Below are positions 1-8,186 of a stretch of 64,000 nucleotides of DNA, one piece after another. Under the pieces are notes generated by a model, which made no database searches, had not been told where the DNA came from, and was given only the letters and a program-made list of their open reading frames with translations. The position numbers and the translations under genes were made by a program. Source of the DNA: Candidatus Poribacteria bacterium (GTDB lineage Bacteria; Poribacteria; WGA-4E; WGA-3G); contig JAPPBX010000082.1 in the NCBI GenBank assembly GCA_026702755.1, forward strand, positions 1 through 64,000. Reading direction: 5' to 3'. How positions within the stretch are numbered: the stretch's first letter is position 1; every line of letters starts with the position of its first letter.

Positions 1-58
1 GACGCACGCATAAAACTAAAAAGACTATATCCTAAAACTCAACATTGAAAGACTACTA

Positions 59-526
59 GTGATCGTTGACCAATCAAGTGGTGACCCTAAGGTTAATCAG
101 TCTTCTGCGGATCGGATTATGTGGTATATCTTCCGTGAAAATCAACGGAAATTTCGAGAAAGTCACGATCCCACAGATATTCTCATTTATATTGAGGAAG
201 CGCATAATTTGTTGCCATCTGGATCGGATTTGGATCTTGAAAATGTATGGGTGCGTACAGCTAAAGAAGGTGCGAAGTTTCGTCTTGGCATGGTTTATGT
301 CACTCAAGAGGTTAGCAGCATTCAAAAGAACATTCTCAAAAACACAGCAAACTGGTTTATTGGACACTTGAATAACACCGACGAAACAGCAGAACTTCGT
401 AAGTTTTATGATTTCTCGGACTTTGAGAAATCAATTCTCCGAGCTCAGGATAGGGGATTTCTGCGGGTCAAAACCCTCAGTAACCTTTTTATTGTGCCAG
501 TGCAAATTAAAAAATTCGAGGTATAA
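59..526 (+). CDS. HerA-like ATPase, C-terminal fragment
   Basis: This is the C-terminal part of a HerA/FtsK-superfamily ATPase, a hexameric DNA pump that works with NurA nuclease in end resection. Visible are a VDQSSGD strand, a Walker-B-like segment [11 protein letters not shown] (about residues 42-52), the [17 protein letters not shown] block (sensor and arginine region) and a C-terminal [12 protein letters not shown] tail. The Walker A half is absent. Upstream of the GTG start at 59 the same frame stays open and protein-like back to base 20, then meets stops at 17-19 and 11-13. The gene is therefore either interrupted by a frameshift or truncated at this end. It ends two bases before the NurA start, so the two are co-translated. 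The family call is firm; whether the protein is functional is doubtful. Confidence 0.75.
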
Positions 527-528
527 TT

Positions 529-1896
529 ATGCCATACGAAGGCGAGTTCGCAAAGTACAGATCCATTCGGCGACTTGTCGAAAACGAACGCGTAAAAAAT
601 TTAGTGGAGCGTGCCAGGATTCAAGATCACTCTTCAGATGAAACTACGCCGCCGATGATAAGAACTTCAGAGATTCCCACGAGTGAGTGGCATCCGAAAT
701 GTGTTATTGCAATTGACGGAAGCCACCAAGAAACATTCGTAGAAAATGGCTATCCAGGTGCTGAAGTGGGATATGTTACGACTGCTGCTGTTGTAATGGA
801 TATAGCGAAAATTAAGGAACTTGACTCTCACAGACCCGTTAATCCCAAATTATTCCGTGAAACTGAAAAAGTGGGTTCTATTGATTCTGCCTTTCCTGGC
901 TGCAACATTGTTATTGACTCAGATAAATCCGCTAAACACTCGTTAAGTAAAATGTTATTTGAAACCTTTGACGAAATTAAACTTTTTGAAGGTGAATCGC
1001 TTCTTGGAACATACGAAGCATTATTGGAACACAAACCTGAAGGTAAAGAACCAGATTGTCCATATTTTGAAGAAGGAGATTGTCAGGCAGATGACAAAAA
1101 ATACCTACGGAAAAAAGGGACTTATCTTTGCCCATGCCCAAATAAAAATATGCTCTACTCTACTGATGCCTTGCGAGTCCATGAAAGAATGGTCCCTGAT
1201 AGTGCCAATGGCGAAATGTTTGGTGAGATTATGCAAGTTTTAGAGCGTATCGTAGTTATCCATATCTTGCGAGCGTTTAAACAACAAAACGCTCTTCAGT
1301 TACTTAAAGACATAGGAATTGTAATTGATGGACAACTCGCTGTCTTTGGATCTCCAGCTTGGTTACACTCCGCAATCCGTGAAGAACTTTACCGACTCAA
1401 TAAAGCTGTTAAAGATACTATAGGGCGAGATTTACTGATAATTGGTATAGAAAAATCAGGAACTTTTGTTAATCACTTTGAAAGGATTGACCAAGATAAA
1501 CATGGTGGCCAAGGTAAATTTCCTCCACAAACTGTTTCTTTGCTAACTGATGAATACATCAAGAAAAACATAATATTCTCAGATAGCACGAAGCCATATG
1601 GCTTAGACACACACTTTGGTCGTAAATTGTTTTATAAAACTGCATCAGGTGCTCGCCTTGTCGCATCACTTCCCTTTTTCGACGATTCACATAGTGATAT
1701 GACTCGTGCTGATCCTAACCAATATCCTCGATTGGTCGACGCACTAAGCCTAATTGATCAGCTAGTGTCCTCTCGTTATCCAAATTCCCTATCGCCGCTT
1801 ATTTCAGCACACGCTGAAGCAGCAATCCCAATGAATATAGGAGCTCGTGTTTTAGAAGAAATAGCAAAGTTAATTGAAAGAGAGGAAAACCTGTGA
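529..1896 (+). CDS. NurA-like DNA repair nuclease
   Basis: This is a NurA-domain nuclease, which in known systems resects DNA ends with HerA. The family hallmark is the CVIAIDGS motif with the metal-binding Asp at residue 63. The C-terminal region (about 345-455) has the expected FFDDSHSD and HAEAAIPMN segments. At 455 aa it is at the long end for NurA. The extra length includes a cysteine-bearing insert with C177, C185, C201 and C203, spaced like a zinc-binding knuckle. The ATG at 529 lies two bases after the HerA stop, and its stop overlaps the next gene's GTG, so all three genes form one translationally coupled operon. The partner genes support a joint role in DNA processing or defence. 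The domain call is strong; the biological target is not known. Confidence 0.85.
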   Translation: MPYEGEFAKYRSIRRLVENERVKNLVERARIQDHSSDETTPPMIRTSEIPTSEWHPKCVIAIDGSHQETFVENGYPGAEVGYVTTAAVVMDIAKIKELDSHRPVNPKLFRETEKVGSIDSAFPGCNIVIDSDKSAKHSLSKMLFETFDEIKLFEGESLLGTYEALLEHKPEGKEPDCPYFEEGDCQADDKKYLRKKGTYLCPCPNKNMLYSTDALRVHERMVPDSANGEMFGEIMQVLERIVVIHILRAFKQQNALQLLKDIGIVIDGQLAVFGSPAWLHSAIREELYRLNKAVKDTIGRDLLIIGIEKSGTFVNHFERIDQDKHGGQGKFPPQTVSLLTDEYIKKNIIFSDSTKPYGLDTHFGRKLFYKTASGARLVASLPFFDDSHSDMTRADPNQYPRLVDALSLIDQLVSSRYPNSLSPLISAHAEAAIPMNIGARVLEEIAKLIEREENL

Positions 1897-3029
1897 TACT
1901 TGTCGATGGTAAATTCAAGCGTAGTTTTAGCAATGCCAGGGGACGATGGGCTGCTGTTGGTCCTTATTATGCTATGTTTCCGCTTGAATTTGCCTTTGAT
2001 GTTGTCAACGAATATTCCAAGCCAGGCCAACTCGTTCTTGATCCTTTCGCGGGCCGCGCCTCAAGTGTATATGCTGCAGCAACACAAGACAGAATTGGAT
2101 TAGGTATTGAAATTAACCCCGTCGGATGGGTGTATGCTCAAGCCAAATTAAACCCCGCTCCTCAGCCAAATGTAGAAAAGCGTCTTAAATCACTTATCAA
2201 CATGAGCATAGATTCCGTTCAACAGTTAGATGAACTTTCCGATTTTTTCAAGATGTGTTATTCAGAAGAGGTTTTAACTTTCCTACTTACTGCCCGTGAT
2301 AAGTTGAAGTGGAAGGAAAATCAAGTAGACCGAACTCTCATGGCATTCCTTCTTATTCACTTACATGGAAAATTGGGCGAAGGACTGTCCAATCAAATGC
2401 GTCAAACAAAAGCAATGGGACCTAATTACTCGGTTCAATGGTGGAAAAAGCACGGATTTATTAAACCACCGGAAATAAAGCTTGAGGACTTTTTCCTCAA
2501 ACGCATACGACTACGATATAGCAAAGGCACCCCGGTTGCCACACAACAAAGTACAGTGAAATTAGGAGATAGTACTCAATTACTACCAAACATAGCAAAA
2601 ATGGTTGATTGTGGCAAACAACAACCTTGCTCGCTACTTTTTACATCACCACCATATCAAGGAATCACAAATTACCATGATGATCAGTGGTTAAGATTAT
2701 GGCTCCTTGGTGGTGAGCCTAAACCTGGATATGGTGCAAAAAAATATAGAGATAAATTTTCATCAAAAGAATCATACCGTGAACTATTAGAATCCGTATT
2801 CAAAAGTGTGTCAAAAATTATGAGTGAAGATAGTACTATTTATGTTCGGACATCTGCTCGCGAATTTACCTTTAAAACCACAATAGATATACTGAGAAAA
2901 TACTTTCCATCTTCATCTTGGAAGGAAAATATTACCTCAGAACCCTTTGTGCGAAAAACTCAGACACATTTATTTGGTGATTCCACGGAAAAACCTGGCG
3001 AAAAAGATATAATTCTCACAACAAAATAA
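1893..3029 (+). CDS. DNA methyltransferase (TSPPY type, N4/N6 amino)
   Basis: This is an S-adenosylmethionine-dependent DNA methyltransferase of the amino type (N6-adenine or N4-cytosine). The SAM-binding motif I is LDPFAG at residues 49-54 followed by GIEINP at 71-76. The catalytic motif IV is TSPPY at 251-255. The order is motif I first and the catalytic motif about 200 residues later, with the target-recognition region probably between them. Many TSPPY enzymes have the opposite order. The GTG start at 1893 overlaps the NurA stop (GTGA) and is preceded by an AGAGAGGA ribosome site. Context with HerA and NurA suggests the methylase marks self DNA or is part of the same module. No restriction endonuclease of a standard type is visible nearby, but upstream sequence is cut off. 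Confidence 0.88.
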   Translation: MILVDGKFKRSFSNARGRWAAVGPYYAMFPLEFAFDVVNEYSKPGQLVLDPFAGRASSVYAAATQDRIGLGIEINPVGWVYAQAKLNPAPQPNVEKRLKSLINMSIDSVQQLDELSDFFKMCYSEEVLTFLLTARDKLKWKENQVDRTLMAFLLIHLHGKLGEGLSNQMRQTKAMGPNYSVQWWKKHGFIKPPEIKLEDFFLKRIRLRYSKGTPVATQQSTVKLGDSTQLLPNIAKMVDCGKQQPCSLLFTSPPYQGITNYHDDQWLRLWLLGGEPKPGYGAKKYRDKFSSKESYRELLESVFKSVSKIMSEDSTIYVRTSAREFTFKTTIDILRKYFPSSSWKENITSEPFVRKTQTHLFGDSTEKPGEKDIILTTK

Positions 3030-3413
3030 TCCCTAATGGAAGACTCTTAGGAATACAACTTATAACGCTCTAAAAATCTATTGGCAATACGCCATTCTCA
3101 TATTTTGTTAGATCAAGTTACCCAAAAACAGAAAAGGGGTCATTTGATAGCTTTTTATCACAGAACTGCATCGGAAATTTTGAGCAGAAACATCAAATGA
3201 GAAAGATCAGGGTCACAAATCCCTCCTACAAACGCTACACCAGAGTAGTGTGGCTGAAAACGGAGTTTTAATTCCCTTACCAACCGCCTGCTGATAATTG
3301 ACAACCAATACCCAAACCTCCTTAATTCTCAGTTGACATCCATTCGCCTGATATGTTATTATTTCCATACACTCGGAAATTATCCATGCCCCAAAGGATA
3401 AAGTCTCCTGACT
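3030..3413. other. Intergenic region after methyltransferase
   Basis: This 384-base, AT-rich stretch separates the HerA-NurA-methylase operon from the AlkC-like gene. It holds one promoter at its right end, described separately, and a short imperfect hairpin around 3208-3236 (agggtcacaaatccctccta) of the dispersed small-hairpin type. No convincing gene was seen in it. Confidence 0.5.
3333..3362 (+). promoter_or_regulatory. Sigma-70-like promoter for AlkC-like gene
   Basis: TTGACA at 3333-3338 is followed by a 17-base spacer and TTATTA (or TATTAT at 18). The predicted transcript would start about 45 bases before the ATG at 3414. Confidence 0.6.
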
Positions 3414-4586
3414 ATGAGAGAGCAACGCACGCTTTTCGATCTGACACAAGATGGTCTGGTCATCGGTGAAAAGATTCAGCACATTTATCCTGAATTTGAT
3501 GTGTCTGCCTTCGTTTCGGATGTCCGGATGGAGATGGAGGGGCAGACGATCTATAACGTGACGAATGCCATTGGGCGCGTCCTACACCAGTATCTGCCAC
3601 GGGATTATCCCGATGCGCTTGCTGTCTTGATGGATTTCGTTGAGCTGGAGGCACCACCGGAACCCGCTCGACATCCCACTGCCGAAACTGAGACGAGTCT
3701 GAGACCGATTGCCCATTTTATCAGCCTGTACGGGTTAGTGGATTTCGACGCATCTCTGGACGCTTTCTGCGAACTCTCAAAACATCGGTGTACGCGTGGT
3801 GGGGAAATTCGGGAATTTATTATCAAGGACGCGGATCGGTGTTTTGAACGTTTCGGTGAATGGGTTACGGACGAAAACGCAAATCTCCGTCTGTTTGTGG
3901 CAACATCGCTTTGCATGCGTGGCACTTGGCAGAAATGGCTGCGTCCGTTTATTGAGGACCCACAACCGATCTTGGCACTTCTGGAGACACTCAAAGACGA
4001 TCCGGATGCACGTGTTCGGGAGCAGGTCGCTACAGATATGCGCGACATCGTTAAGGAGTATCCAGAGGCGGGGTATGCCACGTTGGAGCGGTGGGGTCAG
4101 GACGGTAAAGCGGAAACGGAGAAGATTCTCAAGCAGGCACTTAAATATCAGATGAAGATTGGCGACAAACGCGCTTTTAAACTCCTCGGTCTCGGAGCAG
4201 TGCCGAAGTTAGGCAAGGCAGACCTTACACTCACCGAACTGCAATCTGAACATTTGGTGCTTCCTATCAACGAAGCGTTTCGTTTTTCGTTCAGCCTGCA
4301 AAGCACGTCTGATGCGGATCAGACGATCCTGACGTATTACGTTGTTGCTTATAAACGTCCATCAGGACATATCACGCGTAAACGCTATCGGCTCAGTCAA
4401 CGGAAGTTGAAGTCGAGACAGCGTGTTGCGTACGAAAAGTCTCTGTTTCCGTTGCCGTCGCTGAAGCAGTACGATGACGGCAAAGCGTGTCTTGGGTGGC
4501 ACCGTTTTGAATTGGAGGTCAACGGTGATGTGCGTGGCGGTTTTGATTTTGAGGTGACCGCGCCAAAAGATCGGAGAAATGTTTAG
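3414..4586 (+). CDS. AlkC/AlkD-like DNA alkylation repair protein
   Basis: This protein resembles the AlkC branch of HEAT-repeat DNA glycosylases, which excise alkylated purines such as 3-methyladenine. The N-terminal region has the family-style IYPEFDVSAFV (24-34). The central helical array includes WLRPFIEDPQPILALLETLK (175-194) followed by DDPDARVREQVATDMRDIV (195-213), close to the AlkC pattern of an aspartate-proline loop and a VR-xx-VA helix pair. Residues from about 290 to 385 look beta-rich with a terminal GGFDFEV strand, matching the Ig-like C-terminal domain found in some AlkC proteins. At 390 aa the length fits AlkC plus Ig domain. The sequence is divergent, so the substrate is uncertain. 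It is a single-gene unit with its own promoter. Confidence 0.7.
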   Translation: MREQRTLFDLTQDGLVIGEKIQHIYPEFDVSAFVSDVRMEMEGQTIYNVTNAIGRVLHQYLPRDYPDALAVLMDFVELEAPPEPARHPTAETETSLRPIAHFISLYGLVDFDASLDAFCELSKHRCTRGGEIREFIIKDADRCFERFGEWVTDENANLRLFVATSLCMRGTWQKWLRPFIEDPQPILALLETLKDDPDARVREQVATDMRDIVKEYPEAGYATLERWGQDGKAETEKILKQALKYQMKIGDKRAFKLLGLGAVPKLGKADLTLTELQSEHLVLPINEAFRFSFSLQSTSDADQTILTYYVVAYKRPSGHITRKRYRLSQRKLKSRQRVAYEKSLFPLPSLKQYDDGKACLGWHRFELEVNGDVRGGFDFEVTAPKDRRNV

Positions 4587-4622
4587 GGTTTATTAACCTA
4601 ATAACGATTTAGCATTGGAAGA

Positions 4623-4678
4623 AACCCCCTAAATCCCCCTTATCAGGGGGACTTTAAAAAACAGTGCGTAAGTCCTGC
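4623..4678. repeat. Dispersed C5/G5 hairpin repeat, partial copy
   Basis: Here AACCCCCTAAATCCCCCTTA is followed by TCAGGGGGACTTTAA and then GTGCGTAAGTCC. The same block recurs at about 12162-12211, 34390-34490 (inverted) and 38906-38960. This copy keeps only the right end. CCCCCTTATCAGGGGG forms a strong hairpin that may also end transcription. Confidence 0.75.
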
Positions 4679-4703
4679 TATTATCGGGAAATGGGACACA
4701 AAA

Positions 4704-5438
4704 ATGGCTATTAACGGGATCTTTTTTGACTTATACGGGACACTCTTGGTGTACGGAAATATGGATGTCGCATGGTCTGATTGGCTGAACGAATTTCATA
4801 AACAACTCAGATTGCACGGATTGACGTGTTCAGTAGAATCATTTGCGAAAACGTGCGATCAGTTTTTCGGTAAAAGCGAACCAACACCGCGACAACACAA
4901 TATGACGGTGTTTGAACAACGTATCCAAAACCTCTGCTTGGATTTAGATCTGACTCTAACTTCTGAAGATATAACAGAGATCGCAAACAAAATTGCCAGT
5001 GCTTGGCAAAAACATATAGTGCTCGATGCTGAGGCATTAGACGTACTGCAAATACTACACCGTTCCAAAAAACTCGCTCTCATTTCCAATTTCGATCATC
5101 CACCGCACGTTCATTCTGTTCTCAGTAAACTCGGTCTGACGGATTTTTTTGATTCGGTTGTTATCTCCGGTGAAGTGGGTGTCAAGAAACCGGATCCACG
5201 CATATTTGACTCGGCTTTTGCACAGACGGGAATGAAGCCTGAACAGGTCGTTTATATTGGGGACACGGAAGACGATACGGAAGCTGCTCGCGCTGCGGGT
5301 ATTGTACCGATAGTGATACAAAGGGAAAATGAGGGCAATGCGTTTGATTTCAGCGTCAATAAAGATAGTTCGGAGGGAAAAGAATTCGCACTTGATGTGA
5401 GGACAATAACGAAACTATCGGAACTTACAACTTTGTGA
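4704..5438 (+). CDS. HAD-superfamily hydrolase
   Basis: This is a haloacid dehalogenase-like phosphatase of the HAD-IA type, probably cytoplasmic. Motif I is FFDLYGTL with the nucleophile Asp9; the second Asp of the usual DxD is Tyr11, a common variant in this group. Motif II is LALISNFD, motif III the lysine of GVKKPDP, and motif IV YIGDTEDD. The alpha-helical cap lies between about residues 15 and 110. At 244 aa it has the usual length. Substrate cannot be told from sequence. It stands alone between two repeat-containing intergenic stretches. Confidence 0.9.
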   Translation: MAINGIFFDLYGTLLVYGNMDVAWSDWLNEFHKQLRLHGLTCSVESFAKTCDQFFGKSEPTPRQHNMTVFEQRIQNLCLDLDLTLTSEDITEIANKIASAWQKHIVLDAEALDVLQILHRSKKLALISNFDHPPHVHSVLSKLGLTDFFDSVVISGEVGVKKPDPRIFDSAFAQTGMKPEQVVYIGDTEDDTEAARAAGIVPIVIQRENEGNAFDFSVNKDSSEGKEFALDVRTITKLSELTTL

Positions 5439-5660: not shown

Positions 5661-6395
5661 ATGACAGGTGAAGAGAAATTCAAAGTAGACCTTGAGGGGT
5701 ATCTCGTTATAAAGAATGTTTTGACCGACGACGAGGTCGCTGAGATGAACGAGATTATTGATAACGGAGATCGTCAAGGACCGCCGAGTCTTTGGGGTGA
5801 ACCGTTTAAGCGGCTCATTGACCATCCGAAAATTCTGCCCTATCTGATTGAATTACTGGGTTCGCATGTCCGACTCGATCATGATTACTCCCTCTTTATG
5901 GAGAAAGGGCAAGGACGCGGTGGATTACACGGCGGTGAGGATGGCGGACGCGCCGGTGGACACGTCGGTGATCACTGGTATAAGTATCGGGACGGACATA
6001 TACGGAATGGGTTGTCCGTGATGACGTATAATCTGGCGGATGCTCCGGCAGGTGCGGGTGGGTTTGCTTGTATCCCAGCGAGCCATAAGAGTAATTTCGT
6101 ACCGGAAATTCCGTCAGAGGTTCGGCGATTTGAGCGTCCGGCGCACTATGTCGTCCAGCCGCCCGTCGAGGCGGGAGATGTGCTGTTTTTCACGGAGGCA
6201 CTCATTCACGGGACGATGCCGTGGACAGCGGAACATGAACGGCGGTCGTTGCTCTATAAATACAGCCCTGGACATTCCGCGTGGTCGAGCAATTACTACG
6301 ACATTAGCAAATACGAGGGGTTGACGGAACAACAGAAACGGATGTTGATGCCGCCATCTATCGGCAGACGACCGCCAGTTGTTGATTCGGAATGA
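5661..6395 (+). CDS. PhyH-family Fe/2-oxoglutarate oxygenase, copy 1
   Basis: This 244-aa protein belongs to the phytanoyl-CoA dioxygenase (PhyH) family of non-haem iron, 2-oxoglutarate-dependent oxygenases. Visible are the GYLVIKN start region, LHGG with His90, the IPASHKSNF loop (138-146), the distal His183 in EALIHGTMPW, and the 2-oxoglutarate Arg in RRSLLYKY (194-201). The usual HxD metal triad reads His-Gly-Gly here, so the carboxylate ligand position is glycine, as in some halogenases and as in both neighbouring copies. AAAGGAG lies ahead of the ATG. It is the first of three tandem copies with nearly the same sequence. Substrate unknown. Confidence 0.88.
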   Translation: MTGEEKFKVDLEGYLVIKNVLTDDEVAEMNEIIDNGDRQGPPSLWGEPFKRLIDHPKILPYLIELLGSHVRLDHDYSLFMEKGQGRGGLHGGEDGGRAGGHVGDHWYKYRDGHIRNGLSVMTYNLADAPAGAGGFACIPASHKSNFVPEIPSEVRRFERPAHYVVQPPVEAGDVLFFTEALIHGTMPWTAEHERRSLLYKYSPGHSAWSSNYYDISKYEGLTEQQKRMLMPPSIGRRPPVVDSE

Positions 6396-6434
6396 AGAAA
6401 TATGGCTGAAAGCCAAGTGAAAGGATTATCTATT

Positions 6435-7169
6435 ATGACAGGCGAAGAGAAATTTCAGGTAGACCTTGAAGGGTATCTCGTTATAAAAAATGTCTTGACT
6501 GATGCCGAAATCGCTGAGATGAACGATATTATTGATAATGGTGAACGTCAGGGACCGCCAAGCCTCTGGGGTGAACCTTTTAAGCGATTGATTGATCATC
6601 CGAAAATTCTGCCGTATCTTATTGACCTATTGGGTCCGCATGTCCGACTTGACCATGACTATGCCATTTTCATGGAAAAAGGTCAAAGTGGTGGCAGATT
6701 GCACGGCGGTGAAGATGGTGGTAGACCTGGTGGTAATGAGGGGGATCACTGGTATAAATACCGAGATGGTATCATGCGGAACGGGTTATGTGTGATGACA
6801 TATAATCTGGCGGATGCCCCGGAAGGTGCGGGCGGATTCGCCTGTATTCCGGGAAGTCATAAGAGCAACTTCTTAAGGGAAATCCCGTCAGATGTACGGC
6901 AATTTGAACGCCCAACGCACTATGTCGTTCAACCGGCTCTGGCAGCAGGGGATGTGCTATTCTTCACTGAGGCACTCATTCATGGAACGATGCCGTGGAC
7001 AGCAGGTCATCAACGCCGGTCGTTGCTCTATAAATATAGTCCGGGACACTCCGCGTGGGCGGGGAACTACTATGATATTAGCAAATACGACGGATTGACG
7101 GAGCAACAGAAACGGATGTTGATGCCACCATCTATCGGTAGACGGCCGCCAGTTGTTGATTCAGAATGA
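6435..7169 (+). CDS. PhyH-family oxygenase, copy 2
   Basis: This is the second tandem PhyH copy, very similar to copy 1 across its full 244 residues. I place the start at 6435 because GAAAGGATT lies just upstream and MTGEEKF is the conserved first peptide of all three copies; an in-frame ATG at 6402 would add eleven residues not found in copy 1. It keeps LHGGEDGG (HxG instead of HxD), the distal HGTMPW histidine and the RRSLLYKY arginine. Only 39 bases separate it from copy 1, so they are probably one transcript. The role is presumably oxidation of a small secondary metabolite or lipid, but nothing in the window names the substrate. Confidence 0.87.
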   Translation: MTGEEKFQVDLEGYLVIKNVLTDAEIAEMNDIIDNGERQGPPSLWGEPFKRLIDHPKILPYLIDLLGPHVRLDHDYAIFMEKGQSGGRLHGGEDGGRPGGNEGDHWYKYRDGIMRNGLCVMTYNLADAPEGAGGFACIPGSHKSNFLREIPSDVRQFERPTHYVVQPALAAGDVLFFTEALIHGTMPWTAGHQRRSLLYKYSPGHSAWAGNYYDISKYDGLTEQQKRMLMPPSIGRRPPVVDSE

Positions 7170-7415
7170 AGAAATTCGGACATTCGGACAGTTATAAACA
7201 TGCCGCCCTTACAGGGCTTAGGGTTTTGGTTAAAAACGCTGCTATAAACATGCCGTCCCTCTGGGACTAAAGAGGGTTCTTAAGCATTAAAGGTTTATGA
7301 CTAAAATCCGGCGCAGTTGGAAACAGCACCTACCGGACTGGGACCACGACGGTTATTTGCTCTAAAATTGACACTTATGGGGCAGTTATAAATCGAACCT
7401 GCCGTTATTAACCAA
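7170..7415. repeat. Spacer with TATAAACATGCC repeats
   Basis: The spacer between PhyH copies 2 and 3 contains two units beginning TATAAACATGCCG (about 7194 and 7242), each followed by a short GC palindrome (CCCTTACAGGG; TCCCTCTGGGA). A third hairpin-type segment, CGCAGTTGGAAACAGCACC, lies near 7313-7331, and a TTGACA box at 7368. I see no gene here. Confidence 0.55.
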
Positions 7416-7454
7416 TTGCTGATGGCTGACAGCCAATTGAAAGGATTATCTATT

Positions 7455-8186
7455 ATGACAGGTGAAGAAAAATTTCAGGTAGACCTTGAAGGGTATCTCG
7501 TCATAAAGAACGTCTTGACTGAGGATGAAGTCGCTGAGATGAACGATATCATCGATAACAGCGAACGTCAGGGACCGCCGAGTCTCTGGGGTGAACCTTT
7601 TAAGCGACTGATTGATCATCCGAAAATCCTTCCGTATCTCCTTGACCTACTGGGTCCGCACGTGCGTCTCGACCATGATTACGCCATCTTCATGGAGGCA
7701 GGTCCCCATATTAATGGCTTGCACGGTGGCGAAGATGGTGGTGGACCCGGCGGTCCCGAAGCGGATCACTGGTATAAATACCGAGATGGTATCATGCGGA
7801 ACGGATTGTCTGTGATGACTTACAATCTGGCGGATGCGCCGGAAGGCGCGGGTGGATTCTCCTGTATTCCGGGCAGCCATAAGAGCAACTTTTTGCGGGA
7901 CATCCCGACAGAGGTGCGGCGATTTGAGCGTCCTGCACACTACGTCGTCCAACCTGCTCTGGAGGCGGGGGATGTCGTCTTTTTCACAGAGGCACTCGTT
8001 CATGGAACGATGCCGTGGACAGCAAAACATCAACGGCGGTCGCTGCTCTATAAGTATAGCCCTGGACACTCCTCATGGTCGAACACCTACTATGACATTA
8101 GTAAATACGGCGAATTGAGCGAACAGCAGAAGCGAATGTTGTTGCCGCCTTCTATTGGCAATCGTCCGCGCGTCGTTGATGGTTAA
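7455..8186 (+). CDS. PhyH-family oxygenase, copy 3
   Basis: This is the third tandem PhyH copy, 243 aa. I place the start at 7455, where GAAAGGATTATCTATT precedes the conserved MTGEEKF; an in-frame ATG at 7416 would translate the GCTGATGGCTGA repeat and is unlikely. The metal motif is LHGGEDGG (HxG), with the distal His in VHGTMPW and the Arg pair in RRSLLYKY. The loop before the motif (MEAGPHINGLHGG) differs most between copies, so specificity may have diverged there. Its 285-base upstream spacer could carry separate control. It is followed after 15 bases by the ankyrin gene, probably in the same transcript. Confidence 0.87.
   Translation: MTGEEKFQVDLEGYLVIKNVLTEDEVAEMNDIIDNSERQGPPSLWGEPFKRLIDHPKILPYLLDLLGPHVRLDHDYAIFMEAGPHINGLHGGEDGGGPGGPEADHWYKYRDGIMRNGLSVMTYNLADAPEGAGGFSCIPGSHKSNFLRDIPTEVRRFERPAHYVVQPALEAGDVVFFTEALVHGTMPWTAKHQRRSLLYKYSPGHSSWSNTYYDISKYGELSEQQKRMLLPPSIGNRPRVVDG

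Follow-up and report, generated by a model that had tools for sequence, protein, structure and literature searches.

TdpABC, a phosphorothioate modification system of thermophiles, reportedly contains a translocase-nuclease complex, TdpAB, that breaks down DNA lacking the modification but is blocked where it is present. The titles of PDB entries 8wet and 8wfd confirm only the TdpAB complex. TdpA is a HerA-type protein and TdpB has the NurA fold. Most work on HerA and NurA has treated them as a repair machine, and their role is disputed: the canonical pairs of archaea and Deinococcus are described as resection machines (PMC9960219), while for the repair pair of T. kodakarensis a 2026 study questions resection and suggests that it acts against viruses (PMC12977600).

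Related components recur in several other systems. Restriction-modification systems of Types I-III encode a DNA methyltransferase with a nuclease and an ATP-driven translocase, in their case a PD-(D/E)XK enzyme and an SF2 helicase. In the HerA-Sir2 and HerA-DUF4297 anti-phage systems (PMC11291478; references in PMC12977600), a HerA hexamer serves defence together with an effector nuclease, but the nuclease folds are different and there is no modification enzyme. The DndFGH and HerA/FtsK capture systems (PMC10853773) and a BREX-related one (PMC12839542) use a HerA/FtsK ATPase to intercept invading DNA beside modification genes; these are multi-gene systems, and NurA is unmentioned in the former paper and outside the seven components listed in the latter. 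Finally, in the Thermus element ICETh1 a single operon, which acts in DNA donation, combines a PF01555 methylase with a nurA-like gene and with tdtA of the HerA/FtsK type (PMC5365140).

An operon of HerA, NurA and a DNA methyltransferase in a Candidatus Poribacteria genome invites comparison with all of these. We put at roughly three in four the probability that it is a mobile defence operon resembling restriction-modification, in which a TdpAB-like translocase-nuclease would act together with base methylation. By analogy, the operon may be regarded as the methylation-coupled counterpart of TdpABC within a wide class of modification-dependent immunity. No model in PADLOC-DB 2.0.0 (2023) recognises its NurA up to an E-value of 1, and its HerA and methyltransferase match generic models only; a literature search of partial coverage, with many subscription papers outside it, did not turn up any account of the trio in a defence role.

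The operon at the start of the window

The window, the 64,000-nucleotide stretch analysed here, runs from base 1 of contig C82 in a 5.84 Mb assembly (G000). Its operon reads rightward throughout (+ strand); of HerA it holds the C-terminal part, while NurA and the N4/N6 DNA methyltransferase are intact. The initial annotation had named genes for HerA, NurA and a DNA methylase, and matches to Pfam, PADLOC and NCBIfam models show that all three are real. HerA homology starts at base 47, from which point the window is 82% identical to residues 535-693 of the 693-residue HerA of a relative, G063. The TdpA-like C-terminal part (47..526, +) is recognized by alignment, by Walker B and the motifs that follow it, and by HerA models, many of which match the open reading frame at 59-526 (PADLOC 3.6e-08, NCBIfam 2.2e-07). 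The bases before it (1..46, +) lack homology to HerA relatives, contain in-frame stops at 11 and 17, and are probably poor assembly sequence at the contig end.

The NurA-family, TdpB-like nuclease (455 residues; 529..1896, +) is identified by the Pfam NurA model (7.2e-15), alignments and an AlphaFold2 model. The methyltransferase (378 residues, GTG start; 1893..3029, +) matches Pfam PF01555 at 7.9e-14 and the PADLOC Type II MTase model at 1.8e-21. It belongs to a circularly permuted PF01555 type, the SAM-binding motif DPFAGR (residues 50-55) preceding TSPPY (residues 251-255). Overlaps of a few bases had been claimed throughout the operon; NurA and the methyltransferase do overlap by 4 bases, but HerA and NurA are separated by 2. 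This tight spacing is not a matter of chance, because relatives show the same spacing.

As had also been observed before, the HerA part lacks Walker A; Walker B is present. The lack follows from the position of the window at the very start of its contig, which leaves the N-terminal two thirds of the protein off the contig. A search of the rest of G000 found no other piece of this HerA. The part with Walker A was found in relatives, which carry HerA whole, and its absence here is a contig-end effect. Completeness of the operon at the window is proven only through these relatives, its own HerA being incomplete.

Distribution, linkage and mobility

A search with the window NurA found NurA in 4 of 85 Poribacteria genomes, all four of which show the gene order HerA-NurA-methyltransferase. 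Two of them encode a complete HerA of 689-693 residues, with Walker A (GMTRTGKSN) and Walker B (EEAH). A close methyltransferase (74-78% identity) occurs in exactly the same four genomes, an overlap expected by chance with p ~5e-7; other Poribacteria matches to the methyltransferase are either at most 27% identical over most of their length or short and local. The enzyme is therefore not a housekeeping methylase, an explanation that the initial annotation had raised against its own proposal.

For a wider view, genomes were scanned with a NurA alignment, which yielded 80 NurA loci from many bacterial phyla and archaea. HerA adjoins NurA nearly everywhere in this set, and each of the 70 full-length HerA sequences has Walker A and the Walker B motif EEAH. 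A DNA methyltransferase gene lies within 400 bp of the HerA-NurA pair in 67 of the 80 loci. In the remaining flanks, 919 kb in all, five such genes occur (0.016 per 3 kb), a background rate that rules out chance adjacency. The concern that the three genes might never co-occur elsewhere is thereby refuted.

The 67 adjacent methyltransferases represent three families. The window type, circularly permuted PF01555, accounts for 30 loci and may stand downstream or upstream of the pair; a second, shorter PF01555 type (20 loci) is mostly upstream; and a D12 type (PF02086; 17 loci) occurs mainly in Actinomycetota. Of the 13 loci that have no adjacent methyltransferase, five lie so near a contig edge that the sequence stops within 200 bp upstream of HerA-NurA, and three, all cyanobacterial, lie beside a Type III restriction enzyme gene. 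In those three (L072, L074 and L093, from Nostocales), HerA-NurA directly follows the Type III res gene and a methyltransferase of Type III size (594-669 residues), which HerA-NurA perhaps shares. Five cyanobacterial loci, three of them on plasmids (L009, L010, L011, L044 and L050), have HerA-NurA without a nearby methyltransferase. There an 82-residue helix-turn-helix gene precedes the pair, and these loci may represent a regulated variant that relies on a different modification gene.

Pairwise distances of NurA and methyltransferase correlate in all four groups compared (r 0.94, 0.93, 0.51 and 0.84; Mantel p 0.001 each), so the unit travels as a whole, across phyla. On the NurA tree, phyla are intermingled and there are several switches from one methyltransferase family to another; close relatives of the window NurA come from Cyanobacteriota, Chloroflexota, Bacteroidota, Pseudomonadota, Bacillota and Campylobacterota. 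The HerA-NurA pair is found on plasmids (Halorarius, Deferribacter, Nostocales) and in a Vibrio temperate phage; searching viral_contigs with NurA returned no relatives. In some genomes the operon lies near restriction-modification systems of Types I-III. When flanking genes were compared with PADLOC, those near the operon hit more models than those farther away (170 against 100); as the two sets are both close to the operon and have no random control, the difference is not taken as a sign of a defence island.

The operon is mobile. Complete Poribacteria operons are flanked by glnD upstream and by a Uma2-type gene or an epimerase gene downstream. In G063 and G059 the operon sits between the glnD-type and epimerase genes, which in 10 of 17 congeneric genomes are only about 14 bp apart, leaving an empty site. 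The gap between these two genes (L153-L157, L014, L015) is an insertion hotspot; in other genomes it is occupied by Uma2-type genes, by a DUF4062 protein that has an ATPase domain, and by a protein of HSDR_N type. At the window's own site, the operon is absent from sister genomes: a blastn comparison of window positions 1-5000 with the loci of 14 congeneric genomes places the junction at 3319..3333, where DNA homology to operon-free sister genomes starts and from which it continues rightwards. Further right, a stretch of about 35-54 bases within 4615-4676 matches several nearby copies in sister genomes (L167, L172) as a short interspersed repeat, and three near-identical tandem genes resembling phytanoyl-CoA dioxygenase occupy 5661-8186.

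Resemblance to TdpAB and the proposed mode of action

The AlphaFold2 model of the window NurA (pLDDT 85.7) finds its best match in TdpB of the TdpAB complex (VIA Z 18.7, rmsd 4.2, 299 residues), with lower scores for the repair NurA proteins of Sulfolobus (Z 13.0), Deinococcus (11.9) and Pyrococcus (11.4). The match is by fold only, as the NurA sequence had no sequence match in the PDB. For HerA, a profile search of the PDB places TdpA first at 3e-27, the next entry scoring 1.7e-16. Judged by predicted structure and profile scores, then, NurA is TdpB-like and HerA is TdpA-like, and the pair is closer to TdpAB than to repair HerA-NurA. The window NurA is about 100 residues longer than TdpB, with an insert that contains conserved cysteines; a conserved cysteine pair is formed by C177 and C203. 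It keeps acidic residues D63, D213, E239 and D267, of which D63, E239 and D267 are invariant in 52 sequences and would fit an RNase H-like active site.

In the methyltransferase, DPFxGR and TSPPY are invariant in 29 relatives. Fold searches with its AlphaFold2 model (pLDDT 89.5) returned generic SAM-methyltransferase matches only, which do not separate m4C from m6A enzymes; the TSPPY motif hints at N4-cytosine as the target but is not decisive. The sulphur-inserting gene TdpC was found neither in the operon nor among the neighbours of the complete Poribacteria operons, and the methyltransferase stands in its place. The two systems thus share a modification gene paired with a translocase-nuclease, but differ in the modification, sulphur insertion by TdpC there and base methylation here. 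Compared with restriction-modification systems, the combination of functions is alike, whereas the parts are a NurA of RNase H fold and a HerA hexamer.

In the mechanism that we propose, the methyltransferase would mark specific sites in the cell's own DNA. HerA, as a hexameric ring, would pump double-stranded DNA, and NurA, seated on this ring as a dimer, would cut the DNA fed into it. Unmarked DNA, such as that of a phage, would be translocated and degraded, while marked self DNA would be spared. The layout would be that of the TdpAB part of TdpABC, with base methylation replacing backbone sulphur. Methylation would accordingly be the protective element and unmethylated DNA the substrate for cutting. 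Sequence recognition is most likely supplied by the methyltransferase, because HerA-NurA has no evident target-recognition domain. The proposal builds on gene content, intact motifs, co-occurrence, co-inheritance, repeated methyltransferase recruitment, mobility and structural likeness to TdpAB. The genes for modification and for the putative restriction enzyme are encoded and inherited together (67/80 loci; r 0.94; the same 4/85 genomes). The strongest argument that modification and cutting belong together comes from the pairing of three unrelated methyltransferase families with the same HerA-NurA. Points against the proposal are the incomplete HerA of the window, the cyanobacterial loci where HerA-NurA has no methyltransferase nearby, the DNA-donation role of the Thermus operon, and the negative result in viral_contigs. 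Support thus accrues to the initial annotation's reading of the trio as a restriction-like module, the genes co-occurring widely and the methylase not being a housekeeping enzyme, with restriction as the predicted activity.

The Thermus operon suggests a different role, which we consider improbable. Here HerA would pump and NurA would trim chromosomal DNA for export to other cells in a DNA transfer machine, as has been proposed for TdtA, and the methyltransferase would be an accessory. The gene content of the ICETh1 operon, as published, is much the same, and its deletions show that machinery of this sort can serve DNA transfer: loss of its nurA lowers DNA donation by 4-5 orders of magnitude and loss of tdtA abolishes it, while the methylase has only a minor effect (PMC5365140, PMC7767461). 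However, the ICETh1 operon has the order NurA-HerA-methylase, also includes a type IIG restriction enzyme, and lies in an integrative element that has an integrase and att repeats; the 4-7 kb flanks of the complete Poribacteria operons (L014 and L015) contain no such features. Moreover, a strong tie to three different methyltransferase families would be unexpected if the methyltransferase were an accessory.

A selfish addiction module in the style of Type II restriction-modification, in which loss of the methyltransferase kills the cell, strikes us as very improbable. The operon's patchy, mobile distribution, on plasmids and in a temperate phage, suits such a module, and addiction needs the same enzymology as defence; but it also requires attack on the resident chromosome. 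Addiction and defence are not mutually exclusive, and the observations made here do not separate them.

We give least credence to double-strand break repair through end resection by HerA-NurA, with the methyltransferase linked for regulation or strand discrimination: the canonical pairs are resection machines with the same two folds, NurA's included, and probably the same hexamer-dimer arrangement, but they are housekeeping systems, linked in archaea to Mre11-Rad50, whereas this operon is accessory, mobile, methyltransferase-linked, spread across phyla, confined within Poribacteria to 4 genomes out of 85, nearer to TdpAB than to repair HerA-NurA, and without Mre11-Rad50 beside it in the window or in complete Poribacteria relatives, and the T. 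kodakarensis study itself casts doubt on resection (PMC12977600).

A second HerA-NurA locus and variant arrangements

The same genome has a second HerA-NurA locus. On contig C100 (L017, 7278-1893, minus strand), a NurA of 574 residues is followed by a HerA of 632 residues and by a DpdA-like TGT with a DUF6884 region (586 residues; DpdA match 1.5e-94). This NurA-HerA pair is distant from that of the window, and its HerA gene overlaps the DUF6884-TGT gene. The NurA-HerA-DpdA triad is kept in six other Poribacteria genomes; in a seventh genome of this type the contig end cuts inside HerA, and in an eighth, more distant one a DUF6884-like match is all that appears upstream up to the end of the contig. 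The arrangement points to 7-deazaguanine DNA modification as a further partner of HerA-NurA.

We lean towards viewing HerA-NurA as a restriction engine of general use, joined on separate occasions to three or more DNA-marking chemistries, namely phosphorothioate (TdpABC), base methylation and 7-deazaguanine insertion (DpdA). If so, modification-dependent immunity in bacteria and archaea would include a major class so far overlooked by defence catalogues. If the operon restricts unmethylated DNA, it would provide a widespread two-protein restriction arm whose fold and motor are unlike those of classical systems, and would link repair-type machinery to immunity. It would also raise the question of how base methylation is read by a ring-shaped translocase, and would suggest a re-reading both of the Thermus DNA-donation operon and of the antiviral hints for archaeal HerA-NurA.

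Additional genes accompany or interrupt the pair at several loci. In some forms a fourth gene, for a 250-residue PD-(D/E)XK/Cas4-like nuclease, begins 2 bases after NurA (L066:7033-7791, L068:11329-12081, and L082). A Prevotellaceae locus has a 281-residue gene, GIY-YIG-like by eye, between HerA and NurA (L027:9144-9989). The copy on the Deferribacter plasmid has its HerA gene interrupted by an IS200/IS605 element that carries TnpB (L012:4491-6270); aside from this insertion, the gene order there is methyltransferase-HerA-NurA.
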